From: Actinomycetota bacterium
GTDB taxonomy: Bacteria; Actinomycetota; Actinomycetes; Actinomycetales; Microbacteriaceae
NCBI GenBank assembly: GCA_005777405.1
Contig: SXMH01000179.1
Location: 1-37,366 of the forward strand
Direction of reading: 5' to 3'
DNA length: 37,366 bases
How positions within the stretch are numbered: position 1 is the stretch's first letter; the number at the start of each line of letters is the position of its first letter. The notes beneath the pieces were generated by a model. It had not been told where the DNA came from. It did not search any database and saw only the letters and a list, made by a program, of their open reading frames with translations. Of the stretch, positions 1,819 through 24,406 are shown piece by piece. The translations under genes were made by a program, and so were the position numbers.

Positions 1819-4482
1819 TCATGCTGCGACGACCGCGTACGGCACGGCAAACTCGTGCTCGCCGCTGCTGACGCGCACCGGCTCGCAACCCTCGAGGTCG
1901 ACAACCGCCGCCGCTCCTGTCGGCACTGTCACCGCGACGTGCAGCTCGCCCGCCTCAAGTCGCCACGCAATCGACGCCGTTCCATAGGGAGTCTCATGAC
2001 GAGCGCTCGCCGAGGTCAGGCCCCCGCCCGGGCGAGGCGCGAAGACGATCTCGCGGTAGCCGGGCGCAGCGGGAGCGAGGCCTGCCACCACCCGGTGCAG
2101 CCAGTCGGCCACCGAGCCCAGCGCGTAGTGGTTGAACGACGTCATCGTGCCGGGGTGCACCGAGCCGTCGGGCAGCATGCTGTCCCAGCGCTCCCACACC
2201 GTTGTCGCGCCCATCGTCACTGCGTAGAGCCACGAGGGGCACTGCTCTTCGAGCAGCAGGTCGTAAGCGGCATCCATCTGGCCCGTTGAGCTCAGCGCAT
2301 CGCTGACGACGTTGACGCCCGCGAAGCCGACCGCGATGCGGTTGCCCGACTCTGCGACGAGCTCAGCGAGGCGCTGCCCAACTGCTGCGCGCAGAGCGGG
2401 ATCAGTGATGAGGTCGAAGCGCAGCGCGAGACCATAGGCGGTCTGTGCATCGGAGGTCATGCGGCCGTTGGGCAGCACATACTCCCGCTGAAAGGCAGTG
2501 CGAATCTCGTCAGCTAGCGCGTGGTAGCGCGCAGCATCCTGAGCGCGGTCGAGCACGTCGGCCATGCGCGCGAGCGTGCGAGTCGAGTGCGCGAAGTATG
2601 CAGTGGCGACCAGATAGCGGTCGGTCTTGGCGTCTGCCGGGTCTTGCGGCGGAGCGCTCGGATCGAGCCAGTCACCGAGCTGGAAGCCCTCGTTCCACAG
2701 TCGGTCGGGGCCGGCAAGTCGCTCGACGAGATCGACCCAGGCCCGCGCACTCGCATACTGGTCGGCGAGCACTCCGGCATCGCCGAAGCGCTCGTACAGC
2801 ACCCACGGGGTGAGCACGGCCGCGTCGCCCCAGACAGCACCGGGCCGAATGGGAGTCCACACCTCGTGCGCCGGAATCACCGGCACGTACCACGGCACTG
2901 TGCCGTCCTCGAGCTGATCCGCTGCGACATCGCGCAGCCAATTCGCGAGGAAGCCTGATGAGTCGTAGAGGTAGCTCGCCGTCGGGGCGAAGACCTGAAT
3001 GTCTCCCGTCCACCCCACGCGCTCGTCTCGCTGCGGGCAGTCAGTGGGAATGTCGACGAAGTTGCCGCGCATGCCCCACACCACGTTCTCGTGCAGTCGA
3101 TTGAGCTGCGGGTTCGAGCTCTCGAACCAGCCCGTGCGGCGCATGTCACTGTGCAGAACGCGGGCCACGATATCCCCCGCAGCCACGGCCGCGTCGAGAT
3201 CGCCGGGCCAACCCGTTACCTCGACGTAGCGAAAGCCGTGCACCGTGAACCGTGGCTCCCAGACCTCGGGTTCGTCTCGACCGGCGAGCACGTACACGTC
3301 GGTTGACTTCGCCTCGCGCAACGGTCGGGTGTAGAGCTCACCTGATTGCAGCACCTCGGCCGTGCGCAGGGTGATCGTGTCGCCGGCGGCGCCGGACACC
3401 CGCAGCCGTACGCGACCGACGAGGTTTTGACCGAGGTCAAGAAGTCGCTTGCCGCTCGGGCTCGTGAGTACCGCGACGGGTTGCACCTCCTCGGTGCAGC
3501 GCACGGCAGGGCCCACAGGTGCCACCATCGTGCCCATGTCGCGCTCGCGCACGGCCACCGGCGTCCACGCCTCGCCCGGCGCGATCGACTCGTCATACGA
3601 GGCCGTCGAGAACGCGACGCGCTCCTCGCGAGCGTCATAGGTCTCGCCGTCGTAGAGACCAGCATGCAGAATCGGGCCCGTGGATGCTCGCCATGAGCCA
3701 TCGGTCGCCACGACCGTGCGCGTGCCGTCGTCGTGCAGCACTTCGAGCTGCGCGATGAGCGATTGGTCACTGCCGAACAGGTTGCGGAAGCCGCCGCGCC
3801 AGCCGAGCCGGCCGCGGTACCAGCCATCGGCGAGCCACGCGCCGATGGCGTTGGGCCCGTGCGCCAGCAGATCGGTGACGTCGTAGGTGTAGTACCGCAA
3901 GCGCGAGCGGTACACCGTCCATCCGGGCAGCAGTTCATCACGGCCGACACGTGAGCCGTTGAGCTCAAGTTCAGCGAGACCGTGCGCGCTCGCGTACAAG
4001 CGCGCCCGCACGATGGGCTTCGAGACCTCGAATGCACGGCGCACGAGAGCAGGACGACGCGTGTCAGACTCGGGGTCTTCCTCCCACGCGGCACCGACGG
4101 GTTGCGCCTGCCAGTCGCTCGCGGTGAGCAGTCCCACTTCGAGAGTCGTCGCCGGGCTCCACGCGCTGTGCTCCCCCGCCGAGTTGATGACGCGCACCTC
4201 GACCGTCGCCCGCTCGCGCGACTGCAGCGGTGCCACAGGCCAGGGCACGAGCACCTGCTCGGTACCCGCCGCACCGTCCACGCGCACGATCTGGCTTTCC
4301 GGTGCGCTGTCGCGCGAGATACGAAGTTCGTAAGCGGTCTGCGCCCAGCCCGCCGGCGCCGTCGTGGTCCAGCTGAGTCTCGGAGAGCTCTCGCCAATGC
4401 CGAGTGGTTCGCGGTGATGTTCCACCGAGGGGGCCGCAACAGCGGCAGCCGACTCGGGTGAGGTGGAAGCGGTGATCGACAT
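1819..4482 (-). CDS. Alpha-L-rhamnosidase (GH78)
   Basis: 887 aa; motifs WTGDIQVFAPTASYLYD, DIPTDCPQRDERVGWTGD, TVWERWDSMLPDGSVHPGTMTSFNHYALGSV typical of GH78. Confidence 0.95.
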   Translation of the reverse strand: MSITASTSPESAAAVAAPSVEHHREPLGIGESSPRLSWTTTAPAGWAQTAYELRISRDSAPESQIVRVDGAAGTEQVLVPWPVAPLQSRERATVEVRVINSAGEHSAWSPATTLEVGLLTASDWQAQPVGAAWEEDPESDTRRPALVRRAFEVSKPIVRARLYASAHGLAELELNGSRVGRDELLPGWTVYRSRLRYYTYDVTDLLAHGPNAIGAWLADGWYRGRLGWRGGFRNLFGSDQSLIAQLEVLHDDGTRTVVATDGSWRASTGPILHAGLYDGETYDAREERVAFSTASYDESIAPGEAWTPVAVRERDMGTMVAPVGPAVRCTEEVQPVAVLTSPSGKRLLDLGQNLVGRVRLRVSGAAGDTITLRTAEVLQSGELYTRPLREAKSTDVYVLAGRDEPEVWEPRFTVHGFRYVEVTGWPGDLDAAVAAGDIVARVLHSDMRRTGWFESSNPQLNRLHENVVWGMRGNFVDIPTDCPQRDERVGWTGDIQVFAPTASYLYDSSGFLANWLRDVAADQLEDGTVPWYVPVIPAHEVWTPIRPGAVWGDAAVLTPWVLYERFGDAGVLADQYASARAWVDLVERLAGPDRLWNEGFQLGDWLDPSAPPQDPADAKTDRYLVATAYFAHSTRTLARMADVLDRAQDAARYHALADEIRTAFQREYVLPNGRMTSDAQTAYGLALRFDLITDPALRAAVGQRLAELVAESGNRIAVGFAGVNVVSDALSSTGQMDAAYDLLLEEQCPSWLYAVTMGATTVWERWDSMLPDGSVHPGTMTSFNHYALGSVADWLHRVVAGLAPAAPGYREIVFAPRPGGGLTSASARHETPYGTASIAWRLEAGELHVAVTVPTGAAAVVDLEGCEPVRVSSGEHEFAVPYAVVAA

Positions 4483-5692: not shown

Positions 5693-6595
5693 TCAGCCCT
5701 TGACCGCGCCGGCCGCGAGGCCCTTGATGATGCGCTGGTTGAGGAAGAGGTAGAGCACGAGGATGCCGCCCACGGTGATACAGATGGCGGCGAACAGCGG
5801 CCCGTAGTTGATGGCGCCGTACTCGCCCGAAAAGTTCAGCAGCCCCACCTGGATCGTATTGAGCCTCCGCTGCCCTGCGAAGATCAGCGCGAAGAGCAGG
5901 TCGTTCCAGATGAGGAAGAACTGCACGATCGCCACCGTGATGACGGCGTTGCGCACCATCGGGAAACCAATGAGTACGAACGACTTCAGGATGCTCGCGC
6001 CGTCGATCGTCGCGGCCTCGAAGATCTCACGCGGGATCGCTCGGAAGTACGTCGCCATCATGAACACCGTGAGAGGCAAGCCGCCCGCGGTGTAGATGAC
6101 GATGAGCGGAAGGAGCGAACCATTAATGCCGAGGTTGAAGAACACGATGAACAGCGGCAGCACGATGATCTGGCCAGGAATCATGATTCCCGAGAGGAAG
6201 GTCAGCAGCACGCCGCCGCGACCCTTCCAGACCATGACCTCAAGCGCGAATCCCGCGGCCGTGCCGAGCACGACGATGAGCAGCAGTGAGGGAAAGGTCA
6301 CGATGACCGAGTTGGTGATGGTCGTCGCGAGGTTGCCGACTTCCCAGGCCGTCGCGTAGTTCTCCCACGCCCAGGTCTCGGGCAGCGCCCACGAGGGGTT
6401 GTTGAGAAAGTCGCTGTTCGACTTGAGCGAGTTGATGACCATCCACACGAGCGGATAGCCCGTGATGAGGATGAGGAACGCGATCGTCAGGAGCGCGGGC
6501 AGTCGCCGAACGGTGCGCAACGCTTTGTCACCGATCGAATCGTGACGGTGTCGGCGCACGGAGTGCGGAGTGGCGGTCTGAGTCATGGTGGTCAT
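5693..6595 (-). CDS. Carbohydrate ABC transporter permease (MalG-like, CUT1)
   Basis: 300 aa; multi-TM, EAATIDGASILKSFVLIGFPMVRNAV EAA loop. Confidence 0.93.
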   Translation of the reverse strand: MTTMTQTATPHSVRRHRHDSIGDKALRTVRRLPALLTIAFLILITGYPLVWMVINSLKSNSDFLNNPSWALPETWAWENYATAWEVGNLATTITNSVIVTFPSLLLIVVLGTAAGFALEVMVWKGRGGVLLTFLSGIMIPGQIIVLPLFIVFFNLGINGSLLPLIVIYTAGGLPLTVFMMATYFRAIPREIFEAATIDGASILKSFVLIGFPMVRNAVITVAIVQFFLIWNDLLFALIFAGQRRLNTIQVGLLNFSGEYGAINYGPLFAAICITVGGILVLYLFLNQRIIKGLAAGAVKG

Positions 6596-6605
6596 GGCGC
6601 GGGCC

Positions 6606-7487
6606 TCACTTCGTGTTGTCGCGACGCGACTGCTGGAAGATGACGAGGGTGACGAGCAACGACATGATCGTCAGCAGCAGCGCGATCGTCGAGCCGTAGC
6701 CGTAGTCGCTGAACTGGAACGCCGTGCGATACATGTAGAGCGTGAGTGGTGTCGTCGAGCTGCCAGGGCCACCGCCCGTGAGAGCGAAGACCGAGTCGAA
6801 CACCTTGATGGTGCCGTTGATGCTGAAGATGAGCGAGGCGAAGAGAATCGGCAGCGACATCGGCAGGATGATGTAGCGGAACAGCGACCAGCTGCGAGCG
6901 CCGTCGATGCGGGCCGACTCAACAATGTCGTCGGGAATGTCGAGCAGACCAGAGAAGATGAGCACGCCGTAGAACCCGACCGACCGCCAGATGTCCATGA
7001 TGATGACGACGATGAACGCGGTGCCGCCGGCACCGAGCCAGTCGATGGGCGTCACGCCGACGTTGAACAGCAGCTCGTTGACGAGCCCGTCATTGGGCGC
7101 CGACTGAAAGAGCTTTTGGTAGAGCAGCGAGATGGCGACAGTCGGCAGCACGACGGGGAAGAACACGAGCGTGCGCACGACGACTGACGACTTGCGCAAG
7201 ACGAAGTGGTAGAGCAGTGCCAGGCCGTAGCCGAAGACCACCTGGCCAATGGTGACGATGATCGCGTAGTTGACCGTGAACCAGAAGGCGTCGTGCACGG
7301 CCTTGTCGTTGACGAGCTTTTCGAAGTTGGCGATGCCGTTGAACTCGAAGCCCTGCAGAACGTTGCCGGTGAAGAAGGTGAGCCCGAGCGACCAGAAGAT
7401 CGGAACGAGCATGACGAGGGTGTAGACCAGGAGCGCCGGCCCCAGCAGGAGCGCGATCGCCTTCGGGTCGCCGAGGACGGATTTCAT
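6606..7487 (-). CDS. Sugar ABC transporter permease (MalF-like, CUT1)
   Basis: Start chosen at MKSVLGDPKAIALLLGPALLVYT (ATG at 7487), not the ORF start at 7859; ESARIDGARSWSLFRYIILPM EAA loop. Confidence 0.92.
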   Translation of the reverse strand: MKSVLGDPKAIALLLGPALLVYTLVMLVPIFWSLGLTFFTGNVLQGFEFNGIANFEKLVNDKAVHDAFWFTVNYAIIVTIGQVVFGYGLALLYHFVLRKSSVVVRTLVFFPVVLPTVAISLLYQKLFQSAPNDGLVNELLFNVGVTPIDWLGAGGTAFIVVIIMDIWRSVGFYGVLIFSGLLDIPDDIVESARIDGARSWSLFRYIILPMSLPILFASLIFSINGTIKVFDSVFALTGGGPGSSTTPLTLYMYRTAFQFSDYGYGSTIALLLTIMSLLVTLVIFQQSRRDNTK

Positions 7488-7551
7488 GGTGGCCTCTCGT
7501 GTACGGAAGGGCGGCCTGCACCCGAGGTCGAGGGTACGCCGCGCGGAGACG

Positions 7552-7591
7552 GAGCGAGGGGCGGGCGGGTGTCGCCGCCCGCCCCTCGCTC
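7552..7591. terminator. Strong GC-rich intra-operon stem-loop downstream of the solute-binding protein gene
   Basis: GAGCGAGGGGCGGGCG (7552-7567) / CGCCCGCCCCTCGCTC (7576-7591): 16-17 bp perfect stem with 6-8 nt loop. Confidence 0.8.
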
Positions 7592-7599
7592 GCGGGGTG

Positions 7600-8901
7600 T
7601 TACGGGTTGTCGATCGCGTCTTGCACGAGCGCCATGAACTCCTCAGCCGAGAGCTGGCCGGTGACGAGCAGTGCGGCGTTGGTCGACGAGACAGAGCTGG
7701 CCTTCGCCGGGAAGAGCGCCTCGAACCAGAGCACACTGTCGGTGCTGGTCGAGATCTCGTCGGCGATCGTCTGCGAGATCGCGGGCAGCTCGACCTCGAC
7801 GTCGGCGACGAAGCCGGTGATCTGACCCTGTTCGAGCGCCGCGTTGCCGTAGCCCTCACCGATGCACTTCAGCCACTCGGCGACGTCTTCGGTGTAGGTC
7901 TGCGAGCCGAAGGTGGCGGGCAGGCCGACGTTCGAGGGGTACGCGTCGATGCTGCCGGCGCCGCCCTCGACGGCCGGAAACTTGAAGAAGCCGACGTTGT
8001 CGGCACCGATCTCGTTGCCCTCGCCGTTGATGTTGCCAAGCAGCCAGCTGCCCATGTAGATCATGACGGCATTGCCCGTGAGGAACTCGTTGCTTGCACT
8101 GTCGTAGTCGAGCGATGCGACGTTGTCACCGAAGTAGCCGGCGGCACCGAGGTCAGCAATCGCCTGCGCGGCGGCCACGTACTCGGGGTCGGTCAGCTTG
8201 GCTTCGCCATCGGCGACCTTCTGCAGGGCGTCGCCGCCGAGCGAGCGGAAGAGGTAGCCCGAGACGAGGCGCGTGAGCGGCCATCCCTGCTCGCCCGAAG
8301 CGGCAAAGGGCGTGTAGCCCGCCGCCTGAGCCTCGCCAGCGACCGTGAGCAGCTCGTCCCACGTCGTGGGAACAGCCCAGCCGTTCTCTTCGAAGATCGC
8401 CGTGTTGTAGAAGATGCCTTCGATGTTGTACTGGAAGGGCAAGAACGAGAACTCGCCACCGTAGAGCTTCTTGATGGTCGAGACGGCGCCTTCGGCCACC
8501 TTGTCGCGAACACCGAGCTCGGTCATGGCCTCGTCGAGGTCGAGGACGACGCCGGCGTCGACGAGCTTGGCGCCCTCAGCCGGGTTGCCACCCGCGGAGA
8601 ACATCGGCGGCAGACCGCCCTGGCTCGCGAGCAGCTGCATCTGGGCGTCGATCTCGGCCTGGGGGATCGAGTTGATCTCGAGCGGCAGAGCGGCGTTCGC
8701 GTCTGCACACACACCGTCGACGAGCGCCTGCAGCACGGGCTCGGTCGTGGTGTTCTCAGCGTTCTTCGTGAACAGGAACGACTCGGGCTCGGTGGTCGCG
8801 CCGCCGCCGCCTGCACAGGCGCTCAGCAGCATGGCACCGGCGCCCGCGACAGCGAGCGAGGTGAGGATGGGGCGCCGGAGACGCCGGGGTGCTGTGGTCA
8901 C
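7600..8901 (-). CDS. Extracellular sugar-binding lipoprotein of ABC transporter
   Basis: GTG start at 8901 preceded by AAGGAGGAAAA; lipobox LLSACAGGGG; family 1 SBP-like sequence. Confidence 0.92.
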   Translation of the reverse strand: MTTAPRRLRRPILTSLAVAGAGAMLLSACAGGGGATTEPESFLFTKNAENTTTEPVLQALVDGVCADANAALPLEINSIPQAEIDAQMQLLASQGGLPPMFSAGGNPAEGAKLVDAGVVLDLDEAMTELGVRDKVAEGAVSTIKKLYGGEFSFLPFQYNIEGIFYNTAIFEENGWAVPTTWDELLTVAGEAQAAGYTPFAASGEQGWPLTRLVSGYLFRSLGGDALQKVADGEAKLTDPEYVAAAQAIADLGAAGYFGDNVASLDYDSASNEFLTGNAVMIYMGSWLLGNINGEGNEIGADNVGFFKFPAVEGGAGSIDAYPSNVGLPATFGSQTYTEDVAEWLKCIGEGYGNAALEQGQITGFVADVEVELPAISQTIADEISTSTDSVLWFEALFPAKASSVSSTNAALLVTGQLSAEEFMALVQDAIDNP

Positions 8902-8927
8902 TTTTCCTCCTTGAAAGGTGGGCGTCT

Positions 8928-8949
8928 CCAATTGAGACGTTTCAATTGG
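8928..8949. promoter_or_regulatory. LacI-family operator between SBP and GH3 genes
   Basis: CCAATTGAGACGTTTCAATTGG, 22-bp palindrome with a single non-complementary base pair. Confidence 0.75.
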
Positions 8950-11532: not shown

Positions 11533-12561
11533 ATGATGGCGCGCGTCAGCATCCGCGAGGTCGCGGCTCTTGCCGACGTGGCTCACGGCACCGTCTCGAA
11601 TTTTCTCAACCACCCCGAACGGGTCTCTGCCGACAAGCGAGAACGCATCCAGCGGGCCATCGATCAGCTCGGATACATCCGCAACAACGCGGCGTGGCAG
11701 TTGCGGCTCGGGCGCAGCGGCATGATCGCGTACCTTGCCCCCGACGTCAGCAACCCCTTCTTCGCGACGATCGCCGAGGGTGTCGAGCGGCGAGCGTCAG
11801 AGCACGAGCTCGGCGTCTCGATCGCGAATTCGCATCGTTCGCGCGAGCGTGAAGACGCCTACATCGCTCAGTTCGAGTCGCAGCGTGTGCAAGGCATGCT
11901 CGTATCGTCACACCATCCCATCGAAGATCGCCTTCGTCGGCTGCACGAACGGGGCACGCCCACCGTTCTCGTCGGGCAACGATCGAGCGACGACTCGCTG
12001 TCGTCGATTTCTATTGACGACCGCACCGGGGGCCGACTCGCCGCAGAGCACTTGCTCTCCCTCGGCCGTCGACGCATCGCCTTCGTCGGAGGCCCGCTTG
12101 GCATCCGTCAGGTTGCCGACCGCTTTGAAGGGGCGAGTTCGGCGATCGGGGCCTCGGGTACAGCGACGATCGAAGTCATTCCGCAGAACGAACGCACGCT
12201 CTCGGGTGGTCGCGAAGTGGGCCGCCTCATCGGCGAACGCAGCATTGAGCGCAGACCCGACGCGATCTTCGCCGTCAACGATCTGCTCGCACTCGGCATC
12301 ATGCAAGAGCTCGTGGTGGGCCACGGCATTCGCGTGCCCCATGACATCGCGATCATCGGATACGACGACATCGAGTTCGGCGAGGCCTCCCTTATTCCCC
12401 TCAGTTCGATCCGCGCCCCGCACGAAGACTTCGGCGTCGCGGCGGTCGATCTGCTCGTGAACGCGATGGCTGGCGACCACGAGGGTGAGCGTCACATCGT
12501 CTTCCCGCCCGAGCTGGTCGTGCGCGCATCGACCGCGGGTGGGGCCGGCCTCAGCGGCTGA
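11533..12561 (+). CDS. LacI family transcriptional regulator
   Basis: MMARVSIREVAALADVAHGTVSNFLNHPERVS HTH; start moved from 11413 to ATG with RBS-like GGAAGG. Confidence 0.94.
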   Translation: MMARVSIREVAALADVAHGTVSNFLNHPERVSADKRERIQRAIDQLGYIRNNAAWQLRLGRSGMIAYLAPDVSNPFFATIAEGVERRASEHELGVSIANSHRSREREDAYIAQFESQRVQGMLVSSHHPIEDRLRRLHERGTPTVLVGQRSSDDSLSSISIDDRTGGRLAAEHLLSLGRRRIAFVGGPLGIRQVADRFEGASSAIGASGTATIEVIPQNERTLSGGREVGRLIGERSIERRPDAIFAVNDLLALGIMQELVVGHGIRVPHDIAIIGYDDIEFGEASLIPLSSIRAPHEDFGVAAVDLLVNAMAGDHEGERHIVFPPELVVRASTAGGAGLSG

Positions 12562-12566
12562 GGCCG
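12546..12566. terminator. Palindrome spanning both stop codons of convergent overlapping genes
   Basis: CGGCCTCAGcggCTGAGGCCG; contains TGA (12559-12561, + strand gene) and TCA (12551-12553, stop of - strand gene). Confidence 0.6.
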
Positions 12567-13900
12567 AGTCTCTCTCGCCGGCCGCGCCAGCCGAGGGCTG
12601 CGACTCCGGCGATGAGTACGGCAATGGCGAGGGAAGCGAGCTGCGAGGGTTCAACGCTCGATCCGGTCGCGGCGAGTTCGGCCTCCTCACCCGCCACGGT
12701 GATGTCGACCGCACCCACTTCAACGCCGTCGAGCAGCAGAACGATGCGGTGAGCTCCAGCCGGTGTGTCAGCGGGAATCGTCACCGTGGTCGAGAGGGTT
12801 CCGTCGGCGTTCGACGTTGCGCTGCCGAGGGGCACGGGCGTGGACTGCAGTTCGAGTTCGTACTCGGTCGAGAAGAGCAGGCCCCACACGTTGACGTCGA
12901 TCGTCGCTCCCGGAGCAACGGTGCTCGAGCCCCCCGCACTCACGGTGGGCTCGGCGATGCGGCCACTCGGTGCAGTCGCGATGACATAGGACTGCGTGTT
13001 CGCTGCCTGCACCGTCGCGACCGCGTAGACAACTTCGCCCACCAGCGAGCGGGTCATCGCCAGACTGCTGCCTGTCGCGCCGGTGATCTCGGTGCCGTCT
13101 TCGAGATACCACTGCCAGTCGACCGCTGTGGGGCTGGGGCTCCAGGAGCTCGAGTCGAGAGTGGCCGTAAGAGTGCCAGCGAGCGTGAACTCGCCGCTGA
13201 GCTGCGGGTGGTCGCCGGGGATGAACGAACCCAGGCGCACAGTGTTCGAGAACGGCGAGTTGAGAGTGACATACGTGCTTGCCGTGGGCGCCGTGAGGGT
13301 CGCGATGACGTAGACCGGCGTGCCCAGCAGGTCGACAGTTGCCGTCAGCGAAGCACCCGTTCCCATCTCGGCGTTGGTGTCGACGCGATACCACGTGAAC
13401 TCGACGTCGTCAGGGCTCGGGGTGATGCCGCTCGTGTCGATCGAGGCGGAGAACGATGTGCCGATGACACCCGAGCCGACAACCGTCGGCTGTGGCACTC
13501 CGGCGAACTCCGCCAGTCGCACGGTGTTCGAGAATGCCGAGTTCAGGGTGACGTAGTTGCCCGTGTCGGGCGCCGACAGTGTGGCGATGACGTAGACGGG
13601 GGTGCCCAGCAATGCCGTCGTGGCCTCGAGAGTCGCTCCGGTGCCGATCTGCGCGTTCGTGTCGACGCGGTACCAGGTGTAGTCGACGCCCGTGGGTGTG
13701 GGGGTGACGCCGGTCGTGTCGAACGATGCCGAGAACGATGTGCCCACGACACCCGATCCCGCCACCGTCGGTGAGCCGACGTTCGAGAACTCGCCCGCAG
13801 CATTCGCCGCGGACACGGGAGCGACGAGCCCGAGAAGAACGCTGAGCGCGAGGGCCGCGAGGGCTCCGGCAGTTCGGCGGGCGCGAGAGCGAGGGGTCAC
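12551..13900 (-). CDS. Secreted repeat protein with LAxTG (sortase E-type) cell-wall anchor
   Basis: 449 aa; signal peptide, three about 94-aa Ig-like repeats, C-terminal ELAATGSS-hydrophobic-RGRRERLGLSR. Confidence 0.8.
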   Translation of the reverse strand: MTPRSRARRTAGALAALALSVLLGLVAPVSAANAAGEFSNVGSPTVAGSGVVGTSFSASFDTTGVTPTPTGVDYTWYRVDTNAQIGTGATLEATTALLGTPVYVIATLSAPDTGNYVTLNSAFSNTVRLAEFAGVPQPTVVGSGVIGTSFSASIDTSGITPSPDDVEFTWYRVDTNAEMGTGASLTATVDLLGTPVYVIATLTAPTASTYVTLNSPFSNTVRLGSFIPGDHPQLSGEFTLAGTLTATLDSSSWSPSPTAVDWQWYLEDGTEITGATGSSLAMTRSLVGEVVYAVATVQAANTQSYVIATAPSGRIAEPTVSAGGSSTVAPGATIDVNVWGLLFSTEYELELQSTPVPLGSATSNADGTLSTTVTIPADTPAGAHRIVLLLDGVEVGAVDITVAGEEAELAATGSSVEPSQLASLAIAVLIAGVAALGWRGRRERLGLSR

Positions 13901-14040: not shown

Positions 14041-15333
14041 TCAGCCGAGCCTGCGCACCCGTTCGAGCACATCAACAGGGCCCACCTGGCCGCCCTTGAA
14101 CAGCATCTCGATGCCGTCGATGTGGGGCGCTTGGGCGGTAACGCGGCACAGCACGACGTTGTCGACTGGATTCGCAGCGATGGACACCGAATCGACGCCG
14201 ACTCGAGCGGCAACGTGCCCCGACGTATCACCGCCGCAGACGATGATCCTCCTGGTGAGTCCGGCTGCAAGCGCTGCGGTGATGGCGCGCGCCGACGCTT
14301 CGGCGATCGCCGACACCGCGGATGATGGGTCCGACACATCGACCCCGTCAGCGTCGAGCACGACACTCGTGCCGGCGTCGAGCAGGAGCAGCGCTGCGTC
14401 GACTGCCTCGGTCGACTCGACGAGCGGAAGCGGCAGTACCGCCCAGCCGTGCGATCGAGCGTGTTCGATCTGCTCGCGGGTGCGAGGCGACCGGCTTCCC
14501 GAGACGGTGAGGACGGGAGCGGTCGCAGGGCCAGTCGTGGCAACCTGGCGTGTACCCTCGAGCCCTGCCACCGCAGAGTCGGTGCGGGGCCTCGTTCGGG
14601 CGAGCGCGGCGCTGAGACCACCGGAGCCGAGAACGAAGCGAGGCGAGGTGTCGGCGGCGAGCATCCACAGCGCTTCGCCCAGCAGCGCGAGGTGATTGTC
14701 ATCGAGAGCATCGAGCACGAGGGCGGCGTGTTCGGATGACTGCACGAGGCGCGCCACACCTGCCGCCGACTCGTAGACCGTGAGAGGCAACTCACCGATC
14801 GGAAGCGCGGTCTGCGCCGAGAGATGCACGGCGAGTTGCGACTCGGTCATGGGAGTCGAGGGGTGCGTCGACATGGTCGGTTGCCGGTCGAGGCGGTACA
14901 CGACGTCACCCTCGGCGGCGAAGTGATGCCCGAACAGCGTGAAGCGGCCGAAGTCGGGCTGCGCGAACAGCAGTGGCACGGTCGCGTCACCACAGCGACC
15001 GCGAGCGAGCTCGAGCACACGGCCGAGGTTGCCGATGGTCGGTGACGAATCTGCGGTCGAACAAGCTTTGTACTGCACGATCTGAGCACCGACCGAGAGG
15101 AGGAGGTCGAGTGCCTCGCCGACCTCTCGCTCGATCGCGGCCGTCGGAAGCGACCGTGCGACACCAGCGATGCCGACGAGTGGAGTACCTGCGCTCGCGA
15201 GGAGCTCAGGGGAAGGAGTGCCCAGAAACAAGGTGCCGGCCCAGCCAGATCGCGCGAACTGCAGCAGCACATCGATGCTGCCGGTGAGGTCATCGCCGTA
15301 GAACGCGACATCAGGCCGCGCGAGCTCAGCCAC
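14041..15333 (-). CDS. Four-carbon acid sugar kinase family protein (DUF1537; candidate 3-oxo-isoapionate kinase, OiaK-like)
   Basis: GTG start (VAELARPDVAFYGDDLTGSIDVLLQFA) overlapping the upstream stop; YGDDLTGS, LFAQPDFGRFTLFGHHF and ICGGDTSGHVAARVG typical of DUF1537. ORF-track start at 15720 is too long. Confidence 0.85.
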   Translation of the reverse strand: MAELARPDVAFYGDDLTGSIDVLLQFARSGWAGTLFLGTPSPELLASAGTPLVGIAGVARSLPTAAIEREVGEALDLLLSVGAQIVQYKACSTADSSPTIGNLGRVLELARGRCGDATVPLLFAQPDFGRFTLFGHHFAAEGDVVYRLDRQPTMSTHPSTPMTESQLAVHLSAQTALPIGELPLTVYESAAGVARLVQSSEHAALVLDALDDNHLALLGEALWMLAADTSPRFVLGSGGLSAALARTRPRTDSAVAGLEGTRQVATTGPATAPVLTVSGSRSPRTREQIEHARSHGWAVLPLPLVESTEAVDAALLLLDAGTSVVLDADGVDVSDPSSAVSAIAEASARAITAALAAGLTRRIIVCGGDTSGHVAARVGVDSVSIAANPVDNVVLCRVTAQAPHIDGIEMLFKGGQVGPVDVLERVRRLG

Positions 15334-16591
15334 GCACCCCGCCGAACGTATCGACCGCGGCGCGCAATGCTGGCGAACGCTCCACTGCGGCGGCGAAGCT
15401 CTCTCCATGCTCGGCGGCGTGCCACGCGGTGCGCATCGCCTCGACCCCAGCGGCGGCGCCGTGCGGGTGGCCGTGAATGCCGCCGCCCGCGAGCACGAGC
15501 ACGTCGGTCGTGTCGACCGCGGCGTGCGTGTCGTGCGCGAGCCCTGCCCACTGGCCCGACGACAGCACGGGCACGATCGGTCGGTGGTCGAGCATTGGCG
15601 TGCGCACCTGGCGAATCGAGGCCAGCACTTCGGCATCGCTCTCGTAGAACTTGTTGCTGATGCCGTTGGTGTGCAAATGGTCGACACCAGCGACGCGAGC
15701 GAGCGCCTGCCATGCTCCATAGCCGAAGCCCAGTTGGGGAGACCGCATCATCGAGCCGAGCATGGCGCGGTGGCCGTGAATCGGCAGCTGCGAGTGTCGT
15801 CGCACCCACTCCGTGCCCGCGAAGCCCACCATGTTCACGCACACCATGATGCAGGTGCCGCCCTGCTCAAGCACGAGATCGTGGTTGTGCCGCATGCGCT
15901 CGAGGTCATCGGTGATGTTGAACGCGTACATCGGCATGGTGCCGGTGCGATCCGCGTGTCGCAGCAGCACAGGCATGACGGCCTTGACTCGCTCCTCGAA
16001 CGGAGCAATCGCGCCATTGCCCTGCAGCTCATCATCTTTGATGAAGTCGATGCCCGCCGTCGCGAGCTCACCCACGAGCTCGGCGAGCTCGTCGGGCCGC
16101 AGGCCAATCGAAGGCTTAACGATCGTGCCGATCATCGCCCCTTCGCTGCGGCCCATGAGCCGCCGCGTACCCTCGACGCCGAAGGCCGGGCCCGGGTACC
16201 GCTCGGCGAACTCTGACGGCAGGTCGAGGCCGATGAGCTTGATGGCGGCGAGTTCGCGCAACTCGAAAAGGTTGCCGGCAACTGCCGCGAGCAGGTTGGG
16301 CAATGAGGGCCCGAAGTTGTCGAGAGGAAACCGCAGCCGCAGCAGCGCGCGCCGTCGTTTATCGGGATCACCCTTCGCTCCGGGCAGAGCGCTTGCGCCC
16401 GACAGCGGCAGTTCGTCGACACTCACCACCTGGGCAGCCGATCGCGCGCGCAACTCGTCCGACTCCCGCTCGACCCGAATGAAGGTGCCCGTCGACTGCT
16501 CGCCCGCGAGGGCCTCGGCTGCCTGCTGGAGTGGAAGAGAGGTCTCAATCTCATACGAGGCGATGACTTCAGAGCGTGGCACGTCGCTCAC
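15326..16591 (-). CDS. RuBisCO large-subunit-like protein (form IV RLP)
   Basis: GTIVKPSIGLRPDELAELVGELATAGIDFIKDDELQGN, HGHRAMLGSMMRSP, DHLHTNGISNKF, LVLAGGGIHGHPHG. GTG start at 16591 overlaps the GH127 stop (GTGA). Confidence 0.9.
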   Translation of the reverse strand: MSDVPRSEVIASYEIETSLPLQQAAEALAGEQSTGTFIRVERESDELRARSAAQVVSVDELPLSGASALPGAKGDPDKRRRALLRLRFPLDNFGPSLPNLLAAVAGNLFELRELAAIKLIGLDLPSEFAERYPGPAFGVEGTRRLMGRSEGAMIGTIVKPSIGLRPDELAELVGELATAGIDFIKDDELQGNGAIAPFEERVKAVMPVLLRHADRTGTMPMYAFNITDDLERMRHNHDLVLEQGGTCIMVCVNMVGFAGTEWVRRHSQLPIHGHRAMLGSMMRSPQLGFGYGAWQALARVAGVDHLHTNGISNKFYESDAEVLASIRQVRTPMLDHRPIVPVLSSGQWAGLAHDTHAAVDTTDVLVLAGGGIHGHPHGAAAGVEAMRTAWHAAEHGESFAAAVERSPALRAAVDTFGGVRG

Positions 16592-18567
16592 GACCAGACC
16601 ACCGGCAACCACACCGACATCTCGCCGGGGCCACGGTTGCTCCACGCGAAGTAGGGAATAAGACGCAACGGGATGCCGCGCAGCGGTGCGTCGTCGAGAT
16701 CGCTGTAGAGCGCGCCGGAGTCGGCGGGCAGCACGGCCGCCTCACCGCGCAGTTCGACCACCCGATGCCCGGCGACCTCGCTCTCGTGCGGCTCAAGACG
16801 GGCATCCCTCGGCACAGCCACTTGCTCAAGCAGCACTCCCGCAGGCAGATCGTGGCTCTCGAGCGCATAGACGATCGGGCCCCGCTGCACCGCCACCTGA
16901 TTGCTCGCTTCTTCGACGAGCCGGTGTGCCCTCAGAATGCGCGCGGGCATGGGCAGCTCGAGCACGATCGTTTCGCCCGCCGACCACGTGCGCTCAAGAC
17001 GCACATAGGTGCCGGCTGCGACGGGTTCGGCTGCGCCCCCAGCGATGCTCAGGGTGGCGCCCCCCGCCCAGCCCGGTACGCGCAGCATGACGGGCACTGT
17101 CGCACCACTGCCGGTCGCCTCATCAACGTGCAACGCGATGCGGCCGTGCCACGGGTAGTCGCTCTCTTCGCGCAACACGAATCGGCCGCCATCGGCGAGG
17201 TCGACCGTGCTCGATGTGCCACCGTACATGTCAACACGCAAGCCTTGCGAGGTGAGACTCGCGCCCCGCTCATGCCAGCGGGCGAGGGTGCGGGCAAGGT
17301 TCGGCGGGCAGCAGAAGCACGAAAGGTAGCGTTCTCGCAGTCGAGCGTCGGAGGGCGGGGGCTCAGGCGTGGGGCGCAGCACGGTGTCGCCGGGCATCCG
17401 CAGGGGGAACGGAAGCTCGCGCACCTGGCGCAGCGGGTTCGTGTAGAAGTACTCGGTGCCTGCCAGGCTTACCCCCGCGAGCAACGTGTTGTGGGCGATG
17501 CGCTCAACGAGATCGGCGTACTTCGCCTCGCCAGTGAGAGAGAGCATGCGTTCGCTCCACAACAACATGCCAATGTTCGCGCAGGTCTCGTTGTGCGCCG
17601 TGGTGTGCGGCAGTTGATAGGCGCGACCGTAGGCTTGGTGCACGCGGGTGATCTCGCTTTGCCAGGGATACCCATCGGGCGATGCACCGTCATAGAGGGC
17701 TCCGCACCCGCCGGTGAGGGCGAGCTTCGTGTCGACGACGTCTTGCCAAACCGACTCGAGCACGGTCATGAGGCTCTTGTCGCCGGTCTCGAGAACGAGA
17801 TCAGCGAGACCTGCGTAGAGATAGTTGGCACGCACGGCATGCCCAGCCGCGACGCGCTGTTCGCGCACGGGGATGCGGTCTTGATTGTCATCGCCACCCT
17901 GAAAGTCGTCGCGCACCTCGATGAAGGCCTCGGCAAGCCGCAGCCATCGCTCGGCTCCAGTCGCGCGGTAGAGCTCGACGACGGCCATGTAGTGCGAGGG
18001 GCAGATGGCACTGCGGGCCAGGTCGAGCGGCTTGTCGCGCGCGAGCGCTTCAAGCCAGCTGGCTGCGCCTTCGGCCACCGTGAGAAAGCTGGTCTCGCCC
18101 GTGACTGCGTGGTGTCGCACGGCAGCGCTGATGAGATGGCCCAGGTTGTAGGTCTCGAAATTGAAGCGATCGGCCAGCGGCAGCGCCTCTTCGCTCTTGC
18201 GTTCGGCGATCACGGTGGGTGTGTGCACATAGCCGTCAGAGCGCTGCGACCGAGCGATGAGCTCGACCGCAGCATCAACCTGCGCGCGCAACGGCGAGGC
18301 GGGCTCAAGCTCGATGACGGCGAGCGCCGCCTCAAGCCACTTGTAGAAGTCTCCGTCAAGGAAGGGCGGCCCAGCGTGGTCGCCCTGCTCGTCTCCGACC
18401 GCAATGCGAAAGTTGCGCAGTGCTGGGCTCACCGCATCGTCGGCGAGGTCGGCTCCGATCGCGGGCACGGTCGTGCCGTGCACTCGCTGCTGGATGCCCT
18501 GCCAAAAGCCGCTGGTGAACCGCACGGTCGCGACGCCCGGTGGCACAGTGGTGGTGCTCATGCGCAT
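16588..18567 (-). CDS. Glycoside hydrolase family 127 (beta-L-arabinofuranosidase-like, DUF1680)
   Basis: 659 aa; FWQG, TVIAERK, LPHTTAHNETCANIGMLLW, RYLSCFCCPPNLARTLA (Cys-Cys motif). Confidence 0.92.
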   Translation of the reverse strand: MRMSTTTVPPGVATVRFTSGFWQGIQQRVHGTTVPAIGADLADDAVSPALRNFRIAVGDEQGDHAGPPFLDGDFYKWLEAALAVIELEPASPLRAQVDAAVELIARSQRSDGYVHTPTVIAERKSEEALPLADRFNFETYNLGHLISAAVRHHAVTGETSFLTVAEGAASWLEALARDKPLDLARSAICPSHYMAVVELYRATGAERWLRLAEAFIEVRDDFQGGDDNQDRIPVREQRVAAGHAVRANYLYAGLADLVLETGDKSLMTVLESVWQDVVDTKLALTGGCGALYDGASPDGYPWQSEITRVHQAYGRAYQLPHTTAHNETCANIGMLLWSERMLSLTGEAKYADLVERIAHNTLLAGVSLAGTEYFYTNPLRQVRELPFPLRMPGDTVLRPTPEPPPSDARLRERYLSCFCCPPNLARTLARWHERGASLTSQGLRVDMYGGTSSTVDLADGGRFVLREESDYPWHGRIALHVDEATGSGATVPVMLRVPGWAGGATLSIAGGAAEPVAAGTYVRLERTWSAGETIVLELPMPARILRAHRLVEEASNQVAVQRGPIVYALESHDLPAGVLLEQVAVPRDARLEPHESEVAGHRVVELRGEAAVLPADSGALYSDLDDAPLRGIPLRLIPYFAWSNRGPGEMSVWLPVVWS

Positions 18568-18642: not shown

Positions 18643-18677
18643 GGTGCAATTCGCCGCAACCGTGCATAATCTTGCAC
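18643..18677. promoter_or_regulatory. Putative SorC-type operator/promoter
   Basis: GTGCAATT followed by inverted repeat GTGCA-taatct-TGCAC (18662-18677) in the GH127/racemase divergent intergenic; CATAAT resembles a -10. Confidence 0.45.
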
Positions 18678-18700: not shown

Positions 18701-19369
18701 ATGGCCGCCGTCGACCGCATCGGCTTCCTCCACACTGGCGCGGTCGTCATCGACCCGGTGCGCTCACTCTTCGCACAGCACGTGCCCACCGTCACTGCCG
18801 TGAACTACTTGGACGACCGCATCGTTGCTGACCTCGGCGATCCCGACCGTCACGACTCGGTGCGTGACCGAGTGATCGGCCTCGTGGAGACGGCTAAGGC
18901 CGCTGGCATCGATACGGTCATGCTCACCTGCTCGTCCATCTCGGAATACGCTGCCGAGGCGAGCGCGGCGACCGGAGTGCGTGTGTTGCGCATCGATGAG
19001 GCCATGGCCGACGACGCGGTCGCCGCCGGTTCACGCATCACGGTTATCGCAACCCTGCCGACGACGTGCGCGCCGACCTCGCGACTCATCGACGAGCGGG
19101 CGCGACTCGCTGGCAAAGAGGTGCAGCTCACGAGCATCGTCGTTGAGGGCGCTTTCGCGGCAGTGGCGGCGGGAGACCGTGCGACCCACGACGCGCTCGT
19201 CGGTGCCGCCATCGAACGAGCGGCGACTCAGGCCGATGTGATCGTGCTTGCGCAGGCCTCGATGGCGGGCGCCGCTGACGCCGTGAGCGTGTCAGTGCCG
19301 GTGCTGTCGAGCATCGCCCCGGGCATCCGTCGCCTCGCGGCGCTGCTCGCTGACGACGCCGCCCGCTGA
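18701..19369 (+). CDS. Aspartate/glutamate racemase superfamily protein
   Basis: MAAVDRIGFLHTGAVVIDPVRSLF...TVMLTCSSISEYA; RBS AAGGAGA upstream of ATG 18701. Confidence 0.8.
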   Translation: MAAVDRIGFLHTGAVVIDPVRSLFAQHVPTVTAVNYLDDRIVADLGDPDRHDSVRDRVIGLVETAKAAGIDTVMLTCSSISEYAAEASAATGVRVLRIDEAMADDAVAAGSRITVIATLPTTCAPTSRLIDERARLAGKEVQLTSIVVEGAFAAVAAGDRATHDALVGAAIERAATQADVIVLAQASMAGAADAVSVSVPVLSSIAPGIRRLAALLADDAAR

Positions 19370-19375
19370 CGGCTC

Positions 19376-19405
19376 ACTCGCTACCGACGCCGCTCGCTAG
19401 CGAGT
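19376..19405. terminator. Candidate terminator between convergent genes
   Basis: ACTCGCTA (19376-19383) / TAGCGAGT (19398-19405); also internal CTCGCTAGCGAG palindrome. Confidence 0.45.
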
Positions 19406-20377
19406 CTGCTGGCTGCCGTCAGACGACTCCAGCAACCGCTCTGCCGTGCGAAGGTCGGTGACGAGCGTGGTCACCCAGCCGCCCGCGAGGGCGCCGAGCA
19501 TCGGTTCAATCTTGCGCTCGCCACCCGCCACGCCCACGCGCCGCGGGATGGCCAAGAAGTCATCGACCGCAATCGACACCGTGCGATCGTCGAGCGGGCC
19601 CGCGACGAGCGAGCCGTCACGGCGAAACACACGATGGCAGATGTCGCCCACGGCCCCCTCAGCGAGCAGTGCCTTGCGCTCGTCGGGTGAAAACGCGTTG
19701 CCGCTTTCGGCGAGCAGTTCGCTCGGTTCGATCGATCCGATTCCGACGACCGCCATGGTGAGAGCCCGCCAGCGACGGGCGACCTCGGCGAGGGCGGGGT
19801 CGTCGAGTAGCCGCCGCTGCGTCTGCCGATCTGCGACCACTCCTGGCGCCTGCACGAAGACGGGGCTCGCGCCGAGTGCTCGCGCGAGGCCGTCGACGAG
19901 CCGATGCACTTGACGCTGCACCTCGGGCTCGCCCATGCCCCCGAGCAACTGCACGACCTCCGCAGCCCCGCGGCCGCTCAGGGGGCGCACACGGTCGGCG
20001 ACGGCCATGAGCGTCTGGCTCCACGAGGCGATGCCGATGCGCTCTCCCTCTCCCACGGTGGTCTCGAGATGCGCGGCAGCTACCGCGGCGATCGCTGAGC
20101 GCACCTCGGCGTCATCAGCGTGCTCATCAACGTCAGCGATGATCGCCTCGGCAAGACCGAAGCGCTGCTCGAGCGCATCTTCGAGCTCGCTGTGCAGCCC
20201 CGGTGCAATGGTCACGACAGTGCGCACGATGCCGAGCTCGCCAGCGCGCTTCAGCAGCCGAGAGACCTTTGCCTGCGAGATGCCCAGCGCCTCCGCAATC
20301 TGCACCTGACGCAGCCCGCGCTCGTGGTGCAGTCGCGCGACTTTGGTGAGCAGGCGCAGCTGCGGATCGACATGCAC
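19397..20377 (-). CDS. SorC/DeoR-like sugar-binding transcriptional regulator
   Basis: 326 aa; LTKVARLHHERGLRQVQIAEALGISQAKVSRLLKRA HTH; GIASWSQTL, VVQLLGGMG, VVGIGSIEPS. Confidence 0.92.
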   Translation of the reverse strand: MHVDPQLRLLTKVARLHHERGLRQVQIAEALGISQAKVSRLLKRAGELGIVRTVVTIAPGLHSELEDALEQRFGLAEAIIADVDEHADDAEVRSAIAAVAAAHLETTVGEGERIGIASWSQTLMAVADRVRPLSGRGAAEVVQLLGGMGEPEVQRQVHRLVDGLARALGASPVFVQAPGVVADRQTQRRLLDDPALAEVARRWRALTMAVVGIGSIEPSELLAESGNAFSPDERKALLAEGAVGDICHRVFRRDGSLVAGPLDDRTVSIAVDDFLAIPRRVGVAGGERKIEPMLGALAGGWVTTLVTDLRTAERLLESSDGSQQTR

Positions 20378-21732: not shown

Positions 21733-22422
21733 ATGAGTAGTGAGGCCCTCGCCGTGACCCGAGTGCCCGACGCGGTGTACGAGGCGCTACGCGAGAGCAT
21801 CCTGTCGCAGCGCGAAGCACCAGGAACTGCCATCACCGAGCAGTCGATCGCCGATCGCTACGGCGTTGCGCGACCCACGGCCAAGGTTGCTCTCGAACGG
21901 CTTGTCGCCGACGGACTGCTGCGACGCGAAGCCCACAAGACTGCGCGTGTTCCCGAACTGAGTCGTGACGACATCGTCGATCTCTACGCGAATCGCGCCG
22001 TCGTCGAAGAGGCCGCTTTGCGCACGCTCGCGAGCGATGGCGTCGTGCCGCTCGCCGCCATGGCAGCCCAGCGCGTGCTGGCCGATGCCCTGAACGACAT
22101 CAGCACCGATGTCGCGCCCTTGGCTCGCGCCGACATCGCGTTTCACCGCGCCCTGGTCGAGGCACAGCGTTCGCCGAGGCTCGCGCGCCTGCATGCCCTG
22201 CTCATGGGCGAGATCGAGCTCTGCACGGGGCAAGTGCAAGCGCACCGGCTGCTCGCTCTCGATGACGTCGTCACACAGCACCAGGGCATTCTCGATGCCG
22301 TCGCGGCCGGTGACCCCGAGCTCGCGGGCTCACTGACACGCATCCATATCGAGGGCGCTCGCGACCGCCTGCTCGCCCGCTACGACTCGCAGCACGCGAC
22401 CCAGTCCCCCACAAAGGAATAG
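21733..22422 (+). CDS. GntR family transcriptional regulator (FCD domain)
   Basis: YEALRESILSQREAPGTAITEQSIADRYGVARPTAKVALERLVADGLL HTH; FCD-like C-terminus. Confidence 0.92.
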   Translation: MSSEALAVTRVPDAVYEALRESILSQREAPGTAITEQSIADRYGVARPTAKVALERLVADGLLRREAHKTARVPELSRDDIVDLYANRAVVEEAALRTLASDGVVPLAAMAAQRVLADALNDISTDVAPLARADIAFHRALVEAQRSPRLARLHALLMGEIELCTGQVQAHRLLALDDVVTQHQGILDAVAAGDPELAGSLTRIHIEGARDRLLARYDSQHATQSPTKE

Positions 22423-22425
22423 CTC

Positions 22426-23658
22426 ATGGTGAAACGTCGATTCCCCCGCCCGAAAGAACTCGCGCCTCTCATGCGGTTCAAAGCACCGACCCTCAATGCC
22501 AAGAAGCGGCGGCTGGATGCTGCGCTCACGATCGCCGATCTTCGCAGCATCGCGCAGCGCCGCACGCCCAAGGCTCCCTTTGACTACACCGAGGGCGCGG
22601 CCGAGGGCGAGCTCAGCCTCGCCCGAGCGCGCCAAGCCTTCAGCGACATCGAGTTTCACCCCGCGATTCTGCGCGACGTCAGCAGCGTCGACACGGGTTG
22701 GGATGTACTCGGCTCGCGCGTGGAACTGCCCTTCGGCATCGCTCCGACCGGCTTCACGCGCATGATGCAGACCGAAGGTGAGGTCGCGGGAGCGACCGCA
22801 GCGGCTGCGGCGGGCATCCCCTTCTCACTGTCGACGATGGGCACGACCAGCATCGAGGGCGTGCGGGATGCGGCGCCCGAGGGTCGCAACTGGTTTCAGC
22901 TCTACATGTGGAAAGACCGCGAGCGTTCGATGCAACTCGTCGAGCGTGCCGCCGCCGCAGGCTACGACACGCTGCTCGTCACCGTCGACGTGCCCGTCGC
23001 GGGAGCCCGACTGCGCGACAAGCGCAACGGCTTCTCGATTCCTCCGGCGCTCACGATCGGCACCGTGGTCAACGCGATCCCCCGGCCCTGGTGGTGGTGG
23101 GACTTCTTGACCACCGAGCCGCTCGCCTTCGCGAGCCTCTCGAGTTGGAATGGCACGGTCGCCGAGCTGCTCGACCACATGTTCGACCCCACGGTCACGT
23201 ACGACGACCTGCGATGGATCAAGGAGCAGTGGCCGGGCAAGCTCGTTGTGAAGGGCGTGCAGACGGTCGACGACGCGAAGAAGCTCGCCGAGCTTGGCGT
23301 GGATGGCATCACGCTGTCGAACCACGGCGGGCGCCAGCTAGACCGCGCGCCGATCCCCTTTCACTTGCTGCCCGAGGTCGTGCGCGAGGTCGGCAACGAC
23401 ACCGAAGTACACCTCGACACCGGCATCATGTCGGGCGCCGACATCGTGGCGAGCGTCGCGCTCGGCGCGCGCTTCACACTCATCGGTCGCGCCTATCTCT
23501 ACGGCCTCATGGCGGGCGGACGAGACGGAGTCGATCGCGCGATCGACATCCTCCGTGGTGAGATCACGCGCACGATGAAACTGCTGGGCGTGAGCTCGCT
23601 CGACGAGCTCGAACCGGGACACGTCACGCAACTGCAGCGGCTGATCGCCCGCGGCTGA
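22426..23658 (+). CDS. FMN-dependent alpha-hydroxy-acid oxidizing protein (L-lactate dehydrogenase LldD-like)
   Basis: [84 protein letters not shown]. Confidence 0.92.
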
Positions 23659-23710: not shown

Positions 23711-24406
23711 TCACGAGAGTTCGAGTTCGCGAGCAATGCCCCGCAAGTGACCGGCATAGCCTCCGGCCGTGCGCCCGTCGAAGCGGCCCGAGGTCATGAC
23801 CTCGGCGCGGTCGCTCGCGATGAAGACCGCACCCGCCTTGCGCAAGCGGTGCACGAGATCGACGTCTTCGTGCTCGGGCATCGGCGAGAAGCCGCCGACG
23901 TCGAGGTAGCGCTGCACGCTGAGGCCGAGATTCGCTCCGTGCACGTGCCCGTTGGGGCGCCCCGGAATGTGCGTCGCGCGCCACTTCTCCACGTGCGCGG
24001 GCGAGAGGTCGGCGAAGTCGGGCCGCACCGTGCCGATCATGACGTCGATGCCAGCGCGGCTGATCGCCCGCTGCTCACGAATCCAGTTGGGCGGCACGAC
24101 CGAGTCGGCGTCGGTGTGGGCCAGCCACGAGCATCCACGGTCGATCGCCCGGCGAGAACCGAGTGCGCGCGCCTCGCCGACGTTCTCGAGGTCGACGGCC
24201 TCGACGATCCATTCGGCCGTTGTCCCCGACTCGGAGGCGAAGCGCTGGGCCAGCTCGACGGAGCGATCGGTGCACGCGTCGGCCACGACGACGATCGTGA
24301 CACGTCCGCCTGCCGCAGTCGCAGCAACCCGCACCGACGCAAGGCAGCGTGCGATCAACTGCTCTTCATTGCGTGCCGGAATCACGACACCGACGTGCTC
24401 TTTCAT
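23711..24406 (-). CDS. Glycosyltransferase family 2
   Basis: VGVVIPARNEEQLIARCLASV, VVVADACTDRS, LAHTDADSVVPPNWI. Confidence 0.9.
   Translation of the reverse strand: MKEHVGVVIPARNEEQLIARCLASVRVAATAAGGRVTIVVVADACTDRSVELAQRFASESGTTAEWIVEAVDLENVGEARALGSRRAIDRGCSWLAHTDADSVVPPNWIREQRAISRAGIDVMIGTVRPDFADLSPAHVEKWRATHIPGRPNGHVHGANLGLSVQRYLDVGGFSPMPEHEDVDLVHRLRKAGAVFIASDRAEVMTSGRFDGRTAGGYAGHLRGIARELELS

Follow-up and report, generated by a model that had tools for sequence, protein, structure and literature searches.

A conserved gene module with a RuBisCO-like protein as a candidate route for aceric acid catabolism in bacteria

All plant cell walls contain rhamnogalacturonan II (RG-II), whose rare sugars certain bacteria are already known to release. 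Aceric acid and apiose are both branched sugars of RG-II, and aceric acid, which is acidic, is confined to this one plant pectin, where it occurs in side chain B. Aceric acid is 3-C-carboxy-5-deoxy-L-xylose (PMC8218411). BT1003 is reported to be an aceric acid hydrolase (PMC5698469), and BT_0993, a member of glycoside hydrolase family 2 (GH2), removes Gal-beta-1,2 from aceric acid (PMC11739564); for free aceric acid, neither a fate nor a catabolic pathway was found in the searchable open literature. RuBisCO-like proteins (RLPs) of Agrobacterium K84 and Xanthobacter are reported to catalyze decarboxylation and transcarboxylation/hydrolysis of 3-oxo-isoapionate 4-phosphate (PMC6302742), and the four-step threonate route LtnD-OtnI-OtnK-OtnC uses OtnI as its isomerase (PMC12540250). 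Here we analyzed a 37,366-nucleotide stretch of DNA from an Actinomycetota bacterium of the family Microbacteriaceae (assembly GCA_005777405.1, contig SXMH01000179.1; hereafter the window), in which genes for a GH127 glycosidase, an RLP and a DUF1537 kinase lie beside RAC, a gene for a protein of the Asp/Glu-racemase fold. We consider aceric acid the likely substrate of these proteins, and give about an even chance to the fuller proposal that aceric acid is broken down by a catabolic module of RAC, GH127, the RLP and the kinase, with an RLP step of the OiaT type.

A preliminary description of the window had reported the GH127, RLP and DUF1537 kinase genes as a triplet coupled by two overlaps. 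This arrangement was confirmed, with all three genes on the minus strand (Table 1), the GH127 stop and RLP start sharing four bases (GTGA) and the RLP stop and kinase start sharing eight. Their Pfam matches are Beta-AFase GH127 (303 bits), RuBisCO_large (207 bits) and, as in other DUF1537 kinases, SBD_N (153 bits) together with NBD_C (64 bits). The RAC gene and a SorC-type regulator gene, both conserved alongside the triplet, had been overlooked.

Conservation was surveyed in 300 genomes of the window organism's family, with RLP membership defined as at least 62% identity. The RLP was found in 7/300 genomes. In those seven and no others, GH127 scored 638-765 bits on the NCBIfam aceric acid hydrolase model (AcerHdlse), the next genome reaching 435, and RAC scored 296-325 bits in these genomes only, the next being 228. 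Chance overlap of two 7-in-300 sets amounts to 2.5e-14, ignoring shared descent. A scan of public genomes yielded 19 further loci of the RLP clade, some duplicating family genomes, in Microbacterium, Herbiconiux, Promicromonospora, Jiangella, Ruania, Desertihabitans and other hosts. GH127 and RAC are present in all of these further loci, and the kinase in all but one, which is cut by a contig end. Recurrence of the triplet, proposed earlier as a check, was thus observed in the window, six family genomes and 19-20 further loci, which is beyond chance. Of 26 loci, about 20 showed a readable 8-nt overlap of RLP and kinase and about 16 a readable 4-nt overlap of GH127 and RLP; gene order varies, being RLP-kinase-GH127-RAC in loci L027 and L057.

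Scores on the aceric acid hydrolase model are bimodal across the 300 genomes, with 638-765 bits for one group and at most 435 bits for ordinary GH127 proteins. The PDB chain closest to the window GH127 is BT_1003 (5mqo, 595 bits), ahead of 4qjy (326) and HypBA1 (256). The proximity to BT_1003 and the score gap support the earlier suggestion of a route through glycosidase, kinase and RLP for a branched plant sugar, and especially its aceric acid option. The GH127 protein has no obvious signal peptide and is therefore probably cytoplasmic. A GH2 beta-galactosidase gene adjoins the module in 14/25 clade loci, which fits the Gal-beta-1,2-aceric acid linkage, the target of BT_0993, another GH2.

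Among NCBIfam models, the RLP scores best on OiaX (410 bits, under the cut-off of 700), as against 248 for RuBisCO III and 149-190 for the MtnW models; the OiaX cut-off is of no use for classifying relatives, being reached in 0/31 genomes. The RLP is thus not MtnW, the methionine-salvage 2,3-diketo-5-methylthiopentyl-1-phosphate (DK-MTP-1-P) enolase against which the preliminary description had proposed to check it. The best model for the kinase is OiaK, at 243 bits and likewise under a cut-off of 700. The kinship with OiaX, OiaT and OiaK drawn in that description therefore holds at the level of the superfamily, but not at that of the curated cut-offs. The RLP is about 50% identical to apiose-type RLPs without TPI/RpiB neighbors (L127, 50%) and 40% identical to annotated OiaX.

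The window RLP retains the RuBisCO residues E60, T65, N123, K175, K201, D203, E204, H294, R295, H327, K334, S379, G403 and G404, and departs from RuBisCO at K177 (to S) and W66 (to F). Four of the retained residues, E60, N123, H327 and S379, are present in 22/22 clade RLPs and lost in 5/5 annotated OiaX, which carry D60, G123, Q327 and G or C379 (RuBisCO numbering), a pattern that the window RLP does not show. Retention of the RuBisCO residues for carboxylation and hydration is as expected of OiaT, and on balance we favor an OiaT-type over an OiaX-type outcome. Absence of TPI and RpiB was considered as proof of OiaT-type chemistry and is weakened as such, as the annotated OiaX loci L137 and L138 are likewise without these genes nearby. 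RLP position 298 (W in 26/27 RLPs accompanied by ApnO only; F, L or I in the module clade) was considered as a substrate marker and rejected as not diagnostic, because most RLPs with RAC in other phyla retain W.

RAC adjoins the module in all clade loci. In L036, L037, L040 and L047 it shares the strand of GH127 and lies directly upstream of it, whereas in L027 and L057 it lies downstream. A sequence search of RAC against the PDB gave no match. Its AlphaFold2 model (predicted local distance difference test score, pLDDT, 96) was assigned by Foldseek to the Asp/Glu racemase fold (E 1e-7, template-modeling score 0.7-0.8), which is shared with the Asp/Glu racemases and arylmalonate decarboxylase (PF01177). 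Two-cysteine Asp/Glu racemases have two catalytic cysteines, whereas RAC keeps only the first: Cys77 (TCSS) is conserved in 39/39 homologues and the second is replaced (LAQASM). Paralogues of RAC are flanked by a threonate-dehydrogenase-like gene and a DUF1537 kinase gene at L129:7106-7783, L131:7055-7804 and L132:7074-7823, and in L133-L136 they follow FGGY kinase and LacD-type aldolase genes. A 3-oxo-tetronate kinase gene and a 3-oxo-tetronate-phosphate decarboxylase-like gene occur near the paralogue in L133, L134 and L136; in L136 the kinase, encoded beside the paralogue operon, scores 420 bits, above its cut-off. Because these paralogues hold the gene position of OtnI in the known threonate route, we infer that RAC is a carbonyl-shifting isomerase. 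By analogy, the aldose-ketose isomerase of aceric acid is its somewhat favored role, and the paralogues may be a new family of isomerases that take the place of OtnI-type enzymes.

RLP loci in other bacteria add to this picture. A Rufibacter plasmid carries RLP-kinase-RAC and, elsewhere, genes for a GH127 (43%), GH140, GH28 and fucosidase. Paenibacillus and Cohnella loci have a gene for an unnamed 575-aa protein followed by RAC, RLP and kinase genes, accompanied by GH78 and in one instance also by GH42 and GH95, and in Hephaestia an RLP, kinase and RAC outside the clade accompany pectin or RG-II-type genes. RAC is absent from RG-II-type clusters in Croceibacterium, where overlapping genes for a GH127-family protein, RLP and kinase lie among beta-galactosidases and a fucosidase, and in Streptomyces NBC_00184, where the neighbors of RLP and kinase include GH28, GH78, GH2, a fucosidase and an apiosidase-type gene. 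A pectin/RG-II-type glycosidase gene was found within 10 kb in 29/34 RAC-bearing loci vs 11/65 without RAC, a strong contrast in raw counts that are uncorrected for the tree. RAC was gained or lost at least 11 times on the RLP tree, and its link with glycosidases is therefore not one inheritance event.

The 575-aa family has no Pfam match (L103:7533-9260, L035:10990-12711, L080:7527-9254 and several more loci); it directly precedes RAC-RLP-kinase in Paenibacillus/Cohnella and is found close to RLP-kinase in Streptomyces/Kribbella. A GH127/GH146-like fold is indicated by profile comparison (93%) and by a Foldseek search with a model of low confidence (pLDDT 64), and the protein may replace GH127 at its loci. 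A zinc alcohol dehydrogenase gene stands beside RLP and kinase, without RAC or ApnO, in L030, L032, L055, L056, L059, L065, L086 and L123, and is perhaps a third route to the ketone substrate.

A 32-bp operator-like element, TGCA-N6-TGCA-N3-TTGCG-N5-TTGCA, precedes GH127 in all 12 loci that carry it, with 0.0 expected in shuffles, and stays with GH127 whether the divergent neighbor is RAC or the transporter. Copies at 0-1 mismatch number at most one per genome in 11 whole genomes, and occur at the module only. The SorC-type regulator is a natural candidate to bind this element. A strict palindrome near RAC, GTGCA-N-TGCAC, was rejected as the conserved element; it occurs in the window only, and the longer 32-bp element is conserved instead. 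Many Microbacterium-type loci (L041, L043, L046, L053 and others) share another conserved motif, about TGTGTCAACAGTCAGTGTTGAAATTCTATTCAC, ahead of the transporter in the intergenic region between GH127 and the substrate-binding protein gene.

From gene content, protein families, conservation, retained residues and the separate apiose-type genes described below, all read from sequence, we infer every reaction of the following pathway. An imported oligosaccharide would be trimmed by GH78 and, in many relatives, the GH2 beta-galactosidase, and GH127 would then free aceric acid, CHO-CHOH-C(OH)(COOH)-CHOH-CH3. RAC would shift the carbonyl to give HOCH2-CO-C(OH)(COOH)-CHOH-CH3, a homologue of 3-oxo-isoapionate with CHOH-CH3 replacing CH2OH, followed by phosphorylation of C1 by the DUF1537 kinase. 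The RLP would decarboxylate this phosphate to an enediolate, that of ribulose 1,5-bisphosphate (RuBP) minus the 5-phosphate, then re-add CO2 on C2 and hydrolyze the C2-C3 bond as an OiaT-type transcarboxylase/hydrolase, releasing 3-phosphoglycerate and lactate. The lactate would be L-lactate because of the C4 configuration of L-xylose. We tentatively propose, at rather less than even chances, that this is the first aceric acid pathway, in which an RLP moves the carboxylate within a 5-deoxypentulose 1-phosphate skeleton to yield 3-phosphoglycerate and L-lactate, together with the first aldose-ketose isomerase of the Asp/Glu-racemase fold.

Several points weigh against the aceric acid module with an OiaT-type RLP. 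GH127, the RLP and the kinase are relatives rather than confirmed members of the named families, because all score under the curated equivalog cut-offs; the sole NCBIfam match of the window GH127, the aceric acid hydrolase model, reaches 736 bits where the cut-off is 950, and its family relatives, at up to 765, are also under it. We know of no aldose-ketose isomerase in PF01177. The OiaT-type label is drawn from gene context and residues, which favor it without proving it, and the tree-corrected test of RAC against glycosidases or ApnO was underpowered. The window genome is 81.5% complete in 219 contigs and other members of its genus are without the module; misbinning or a recent transfer may account for its presence here. 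Lactate dehydrogenases are inconstant, LldD being found in the window only and a D-specific-looking FAD/FeS dehydrogenase in 10/25 loci. Finally, rhamnulose-phosphate aldolase and other class II aldolases in module genomes keep a simple decarboxylase route standing.

In that route, the substrate and first steps would be the same and the RLP would act as an OiaX-like decarboxylase, converting 2-keto aceric acid 1-phosphate to CO2 and 5-deoxypentulose 1-phosphate, which a rhamnose-type aldolase would cleave to dihydroxyacetone phosphate and acetaldehyde. OiaX as the best curated model argues for it, as do the rhamnose isomerase and RhaE-type bifunctional aldolase/dehydrogenase genes that adjoin the module in several loci and the class II aldolases of 18/18 genomes searched, although aldolase presence, positive in every genome, was discarded as uninformative between decarboxylase and transcarboxylase. 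We nevertheless hold this route to be rather unlikely, given the 40% identity of the RLP to annotated OiaX, the four RuBisCO residues that OiaX has lost, the lack of an aldolase constant in the module and the operator-like element, of which these genomes carry only the module copy at 0-1 mismatch. Far less probable is a reading in which GH127 acts as a common beta-L-arabinofuranosidase or a furanosidase of similar kind, while an unrelated acid sugar of four to six carbons is the substrate of the RLP and kinase. GH127 does include beta-L-arabinofuranosidases and anhydrogalactosidases and the aceric-model match is under its cut-off, but a 200-bit gap separates the protein from ordinary GH127s of the same bacterial family, and no other solved enzyme comes nearly as close as BT_1003. 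The RLP keeps the RuBisCO fold and catalytic residues, yet the MtnW and RuBisCO III scores well below that for OiaX, the change at K177 and the coupling to DUF1537 kinase and glycosidase genes leave a methionine-salvage enolase or a genuine RuBisCO barely credible.

Apiose or apionate, the other substrate option of the preliminary description, found no support. An ApnO search returned a 38-42% homologue in 17/18 module genomes, but this homologue stands alone, because many module-free genomes have it too. In 8 examined regions (L153-L160) it belongs to an RLP-free set with a xylose-isomerase-like TIM barrel, a dihydroxyacetone (DHA)-kinase family kinase, TPI and RpiB, most of these sets also having an ApnL-like lactonase; we take this set to match the RLP-free apiose route (OiaC, LerK). 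It lies on contig C46 (L156) in the window genome and within about 25 kb of the module in 9 other module genomes, some of which add a GH140 apiosidase-type gene. Given this separate set, apionate does not require the RLP and kinase, and it was rejected as the main substrate. True ApnO (47-50% identity) occurs in the family only in genomes with an apiose-type RLP. A reading in which 3-oxo-isoapionate derived from apiose is the substrate of the kinase and RLP, and GH127 a mere neighboring RG-II enzyme, would agree with OiaK and OiaX as best-scoring models, with the apiose of RG-II and with three Acidobacteria loci that carry both ApnO and RAC. This is nonetheless quite improbable: module genomes hold the separate set with its own TIM-barrel protein, kinase, TPI and RpiB, apart from L057, neither the window nor any clade locus has ApnO within 10 kb, and both the translational coupling of GH127, RLP and kinase and their exact co-occurrence would be left unexplained. 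The missing dehydrogenase and lactonase, seen earlier as a gap, are not required for aceric acid, which needs only aldose-ketose isomerization; the gap itself would be filled by RAC as candidate isomerase.

Table 1 Features of the module and its surroundings in the window
Feature	Coordinates	Strand	Basis or remark
GH127, BT_1003-like aceric acid hydrolase (predicted)	16588..18567	-	NCBIfam, PDB comparison, Pfam
RuBisCO-like protein (RLP), GTG start	15326..16591	-	NCBIfam OiaX best; Pfam RuBisCO_large
DUF1537 kinase, OiaK-like, GTG start	14041..15333	-	NCBIfam OiaK best; Pfam SBD_N/NBD_C
RAC, PF01177 Asp/Glu-racemase-fold protein	18701..19369	+	PF01177 60 bits; divergent from GH127
32-bp operator-like element, between GH127 and RAC	18645..18676	-	Motif in 12 loci
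SorC/DeoR-type sugar-binding regulator	19397..20377	-	Sugar-bind PF04198 188 bits
ATP-binding cassette (ABC) substrate-binding protein, start not refined, less certain module part	7600..8931	-	SBP_bac_1
ABC permease, start not refined, less certain module part	6606..7859	-	BPD_transp_1
ABC permease, less certain module part	5693..6595	-	BPD_transp_1
GH78 alpha-L-rhamnosidase	1819..4482	-	Pfam Bac_rhamnosid6H 422 bits

Besides the GH2 beta-galactosidase, the neighbors recorded in the 25 clade loci include an ABC transporter (18-21 loci), a SorC-type regulator (16), GH78 (14) and the FAD/FeS dehydrogenase (10). The ABC substrate-binding protein of the window is 70-79% identical to a GH78-linked set (L036/L037/L040) and 42-47% identical to a RAC-linked set. 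At window positions 1-690 (-) lies a truncated xylose-isomerase-like gene, 73% identical to RhaI of L049, and rhamnose genes adjoin the module in L036, L040 and L049 as well. An FMN-dependent L-lactate dehydrogenase-like gene (22426-23658, +), preceded by a GntR/FCD regulator gene (21733-22422, +), would suit an L-lactate product; its position beside the module is not conserved elsewhere. The 449-aa protein encoded at 12551-13900 (-) has similar repeats, no Pfam match and a C-terminal LAATGS...membrane-helix...RRER tail, from which it is probably cell-wall anchored. The region 23711-26753 (-) encodes a family 2 glycosyltransferase, a PIG-L deacetylase and methyltransferase fusion and a weak acyl-CoA dehydrogenase-like open reading frame.

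If the proposed pathway is correct, four genes would supply all missing steps of aceric acid use, and the combination of GH127, RLP, kinase and RAC would serve as a genetic marker for aceric acid users. It would also extend the Asp/Glu racemase fold to a new function and add a new RLP reaction close to the chemistry of RuBisCO itself. As the enediolate would be that of RuBP minus one phosphate, the RLP might also fix free CO2 onto 5-deoxypentulose 1-phosphates.

We regard the module as a variant of the branched-sugar pathways that combine a DUF1537 kinase with an RLP. In the RG-II degradation system of Bacteroides thetaiotaomicron, BT1003 belongs to the same GH127 clade and BT0993 (GH2) acts on the same neighboring linkage, Gal-beta-1,2-aceric acid; that system is described for depolymerization, whereas here the hydrolase is coupled to a kinase and an RLP. 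The 3-oxo-isoapionate pathways of apiose catabolism (OiaK with OiaT or OiaX; Carter et al. 2018, reported in PMC6302742) also place a DUF1537 kinase next to an RLP, and the substrate predicted here has the same phosphate-CH2-CO-C(OH)(COOH)- head. Our module is without ApnO and has GH127 and RAC in its place, and the predicted side group is CHOH-CH3, which would give lactate rather than glycolate. The threonate pathway resembles the proposed one in its sequence of a carbonyl-shifting isomerase, a DUF1537 kinase and then carboxyl loss. It differs in its isomerase, OtnI as opposed to the PF01177 protein here, and in its last enzyme, an aldolase-II protein where the present module would use an RLP.

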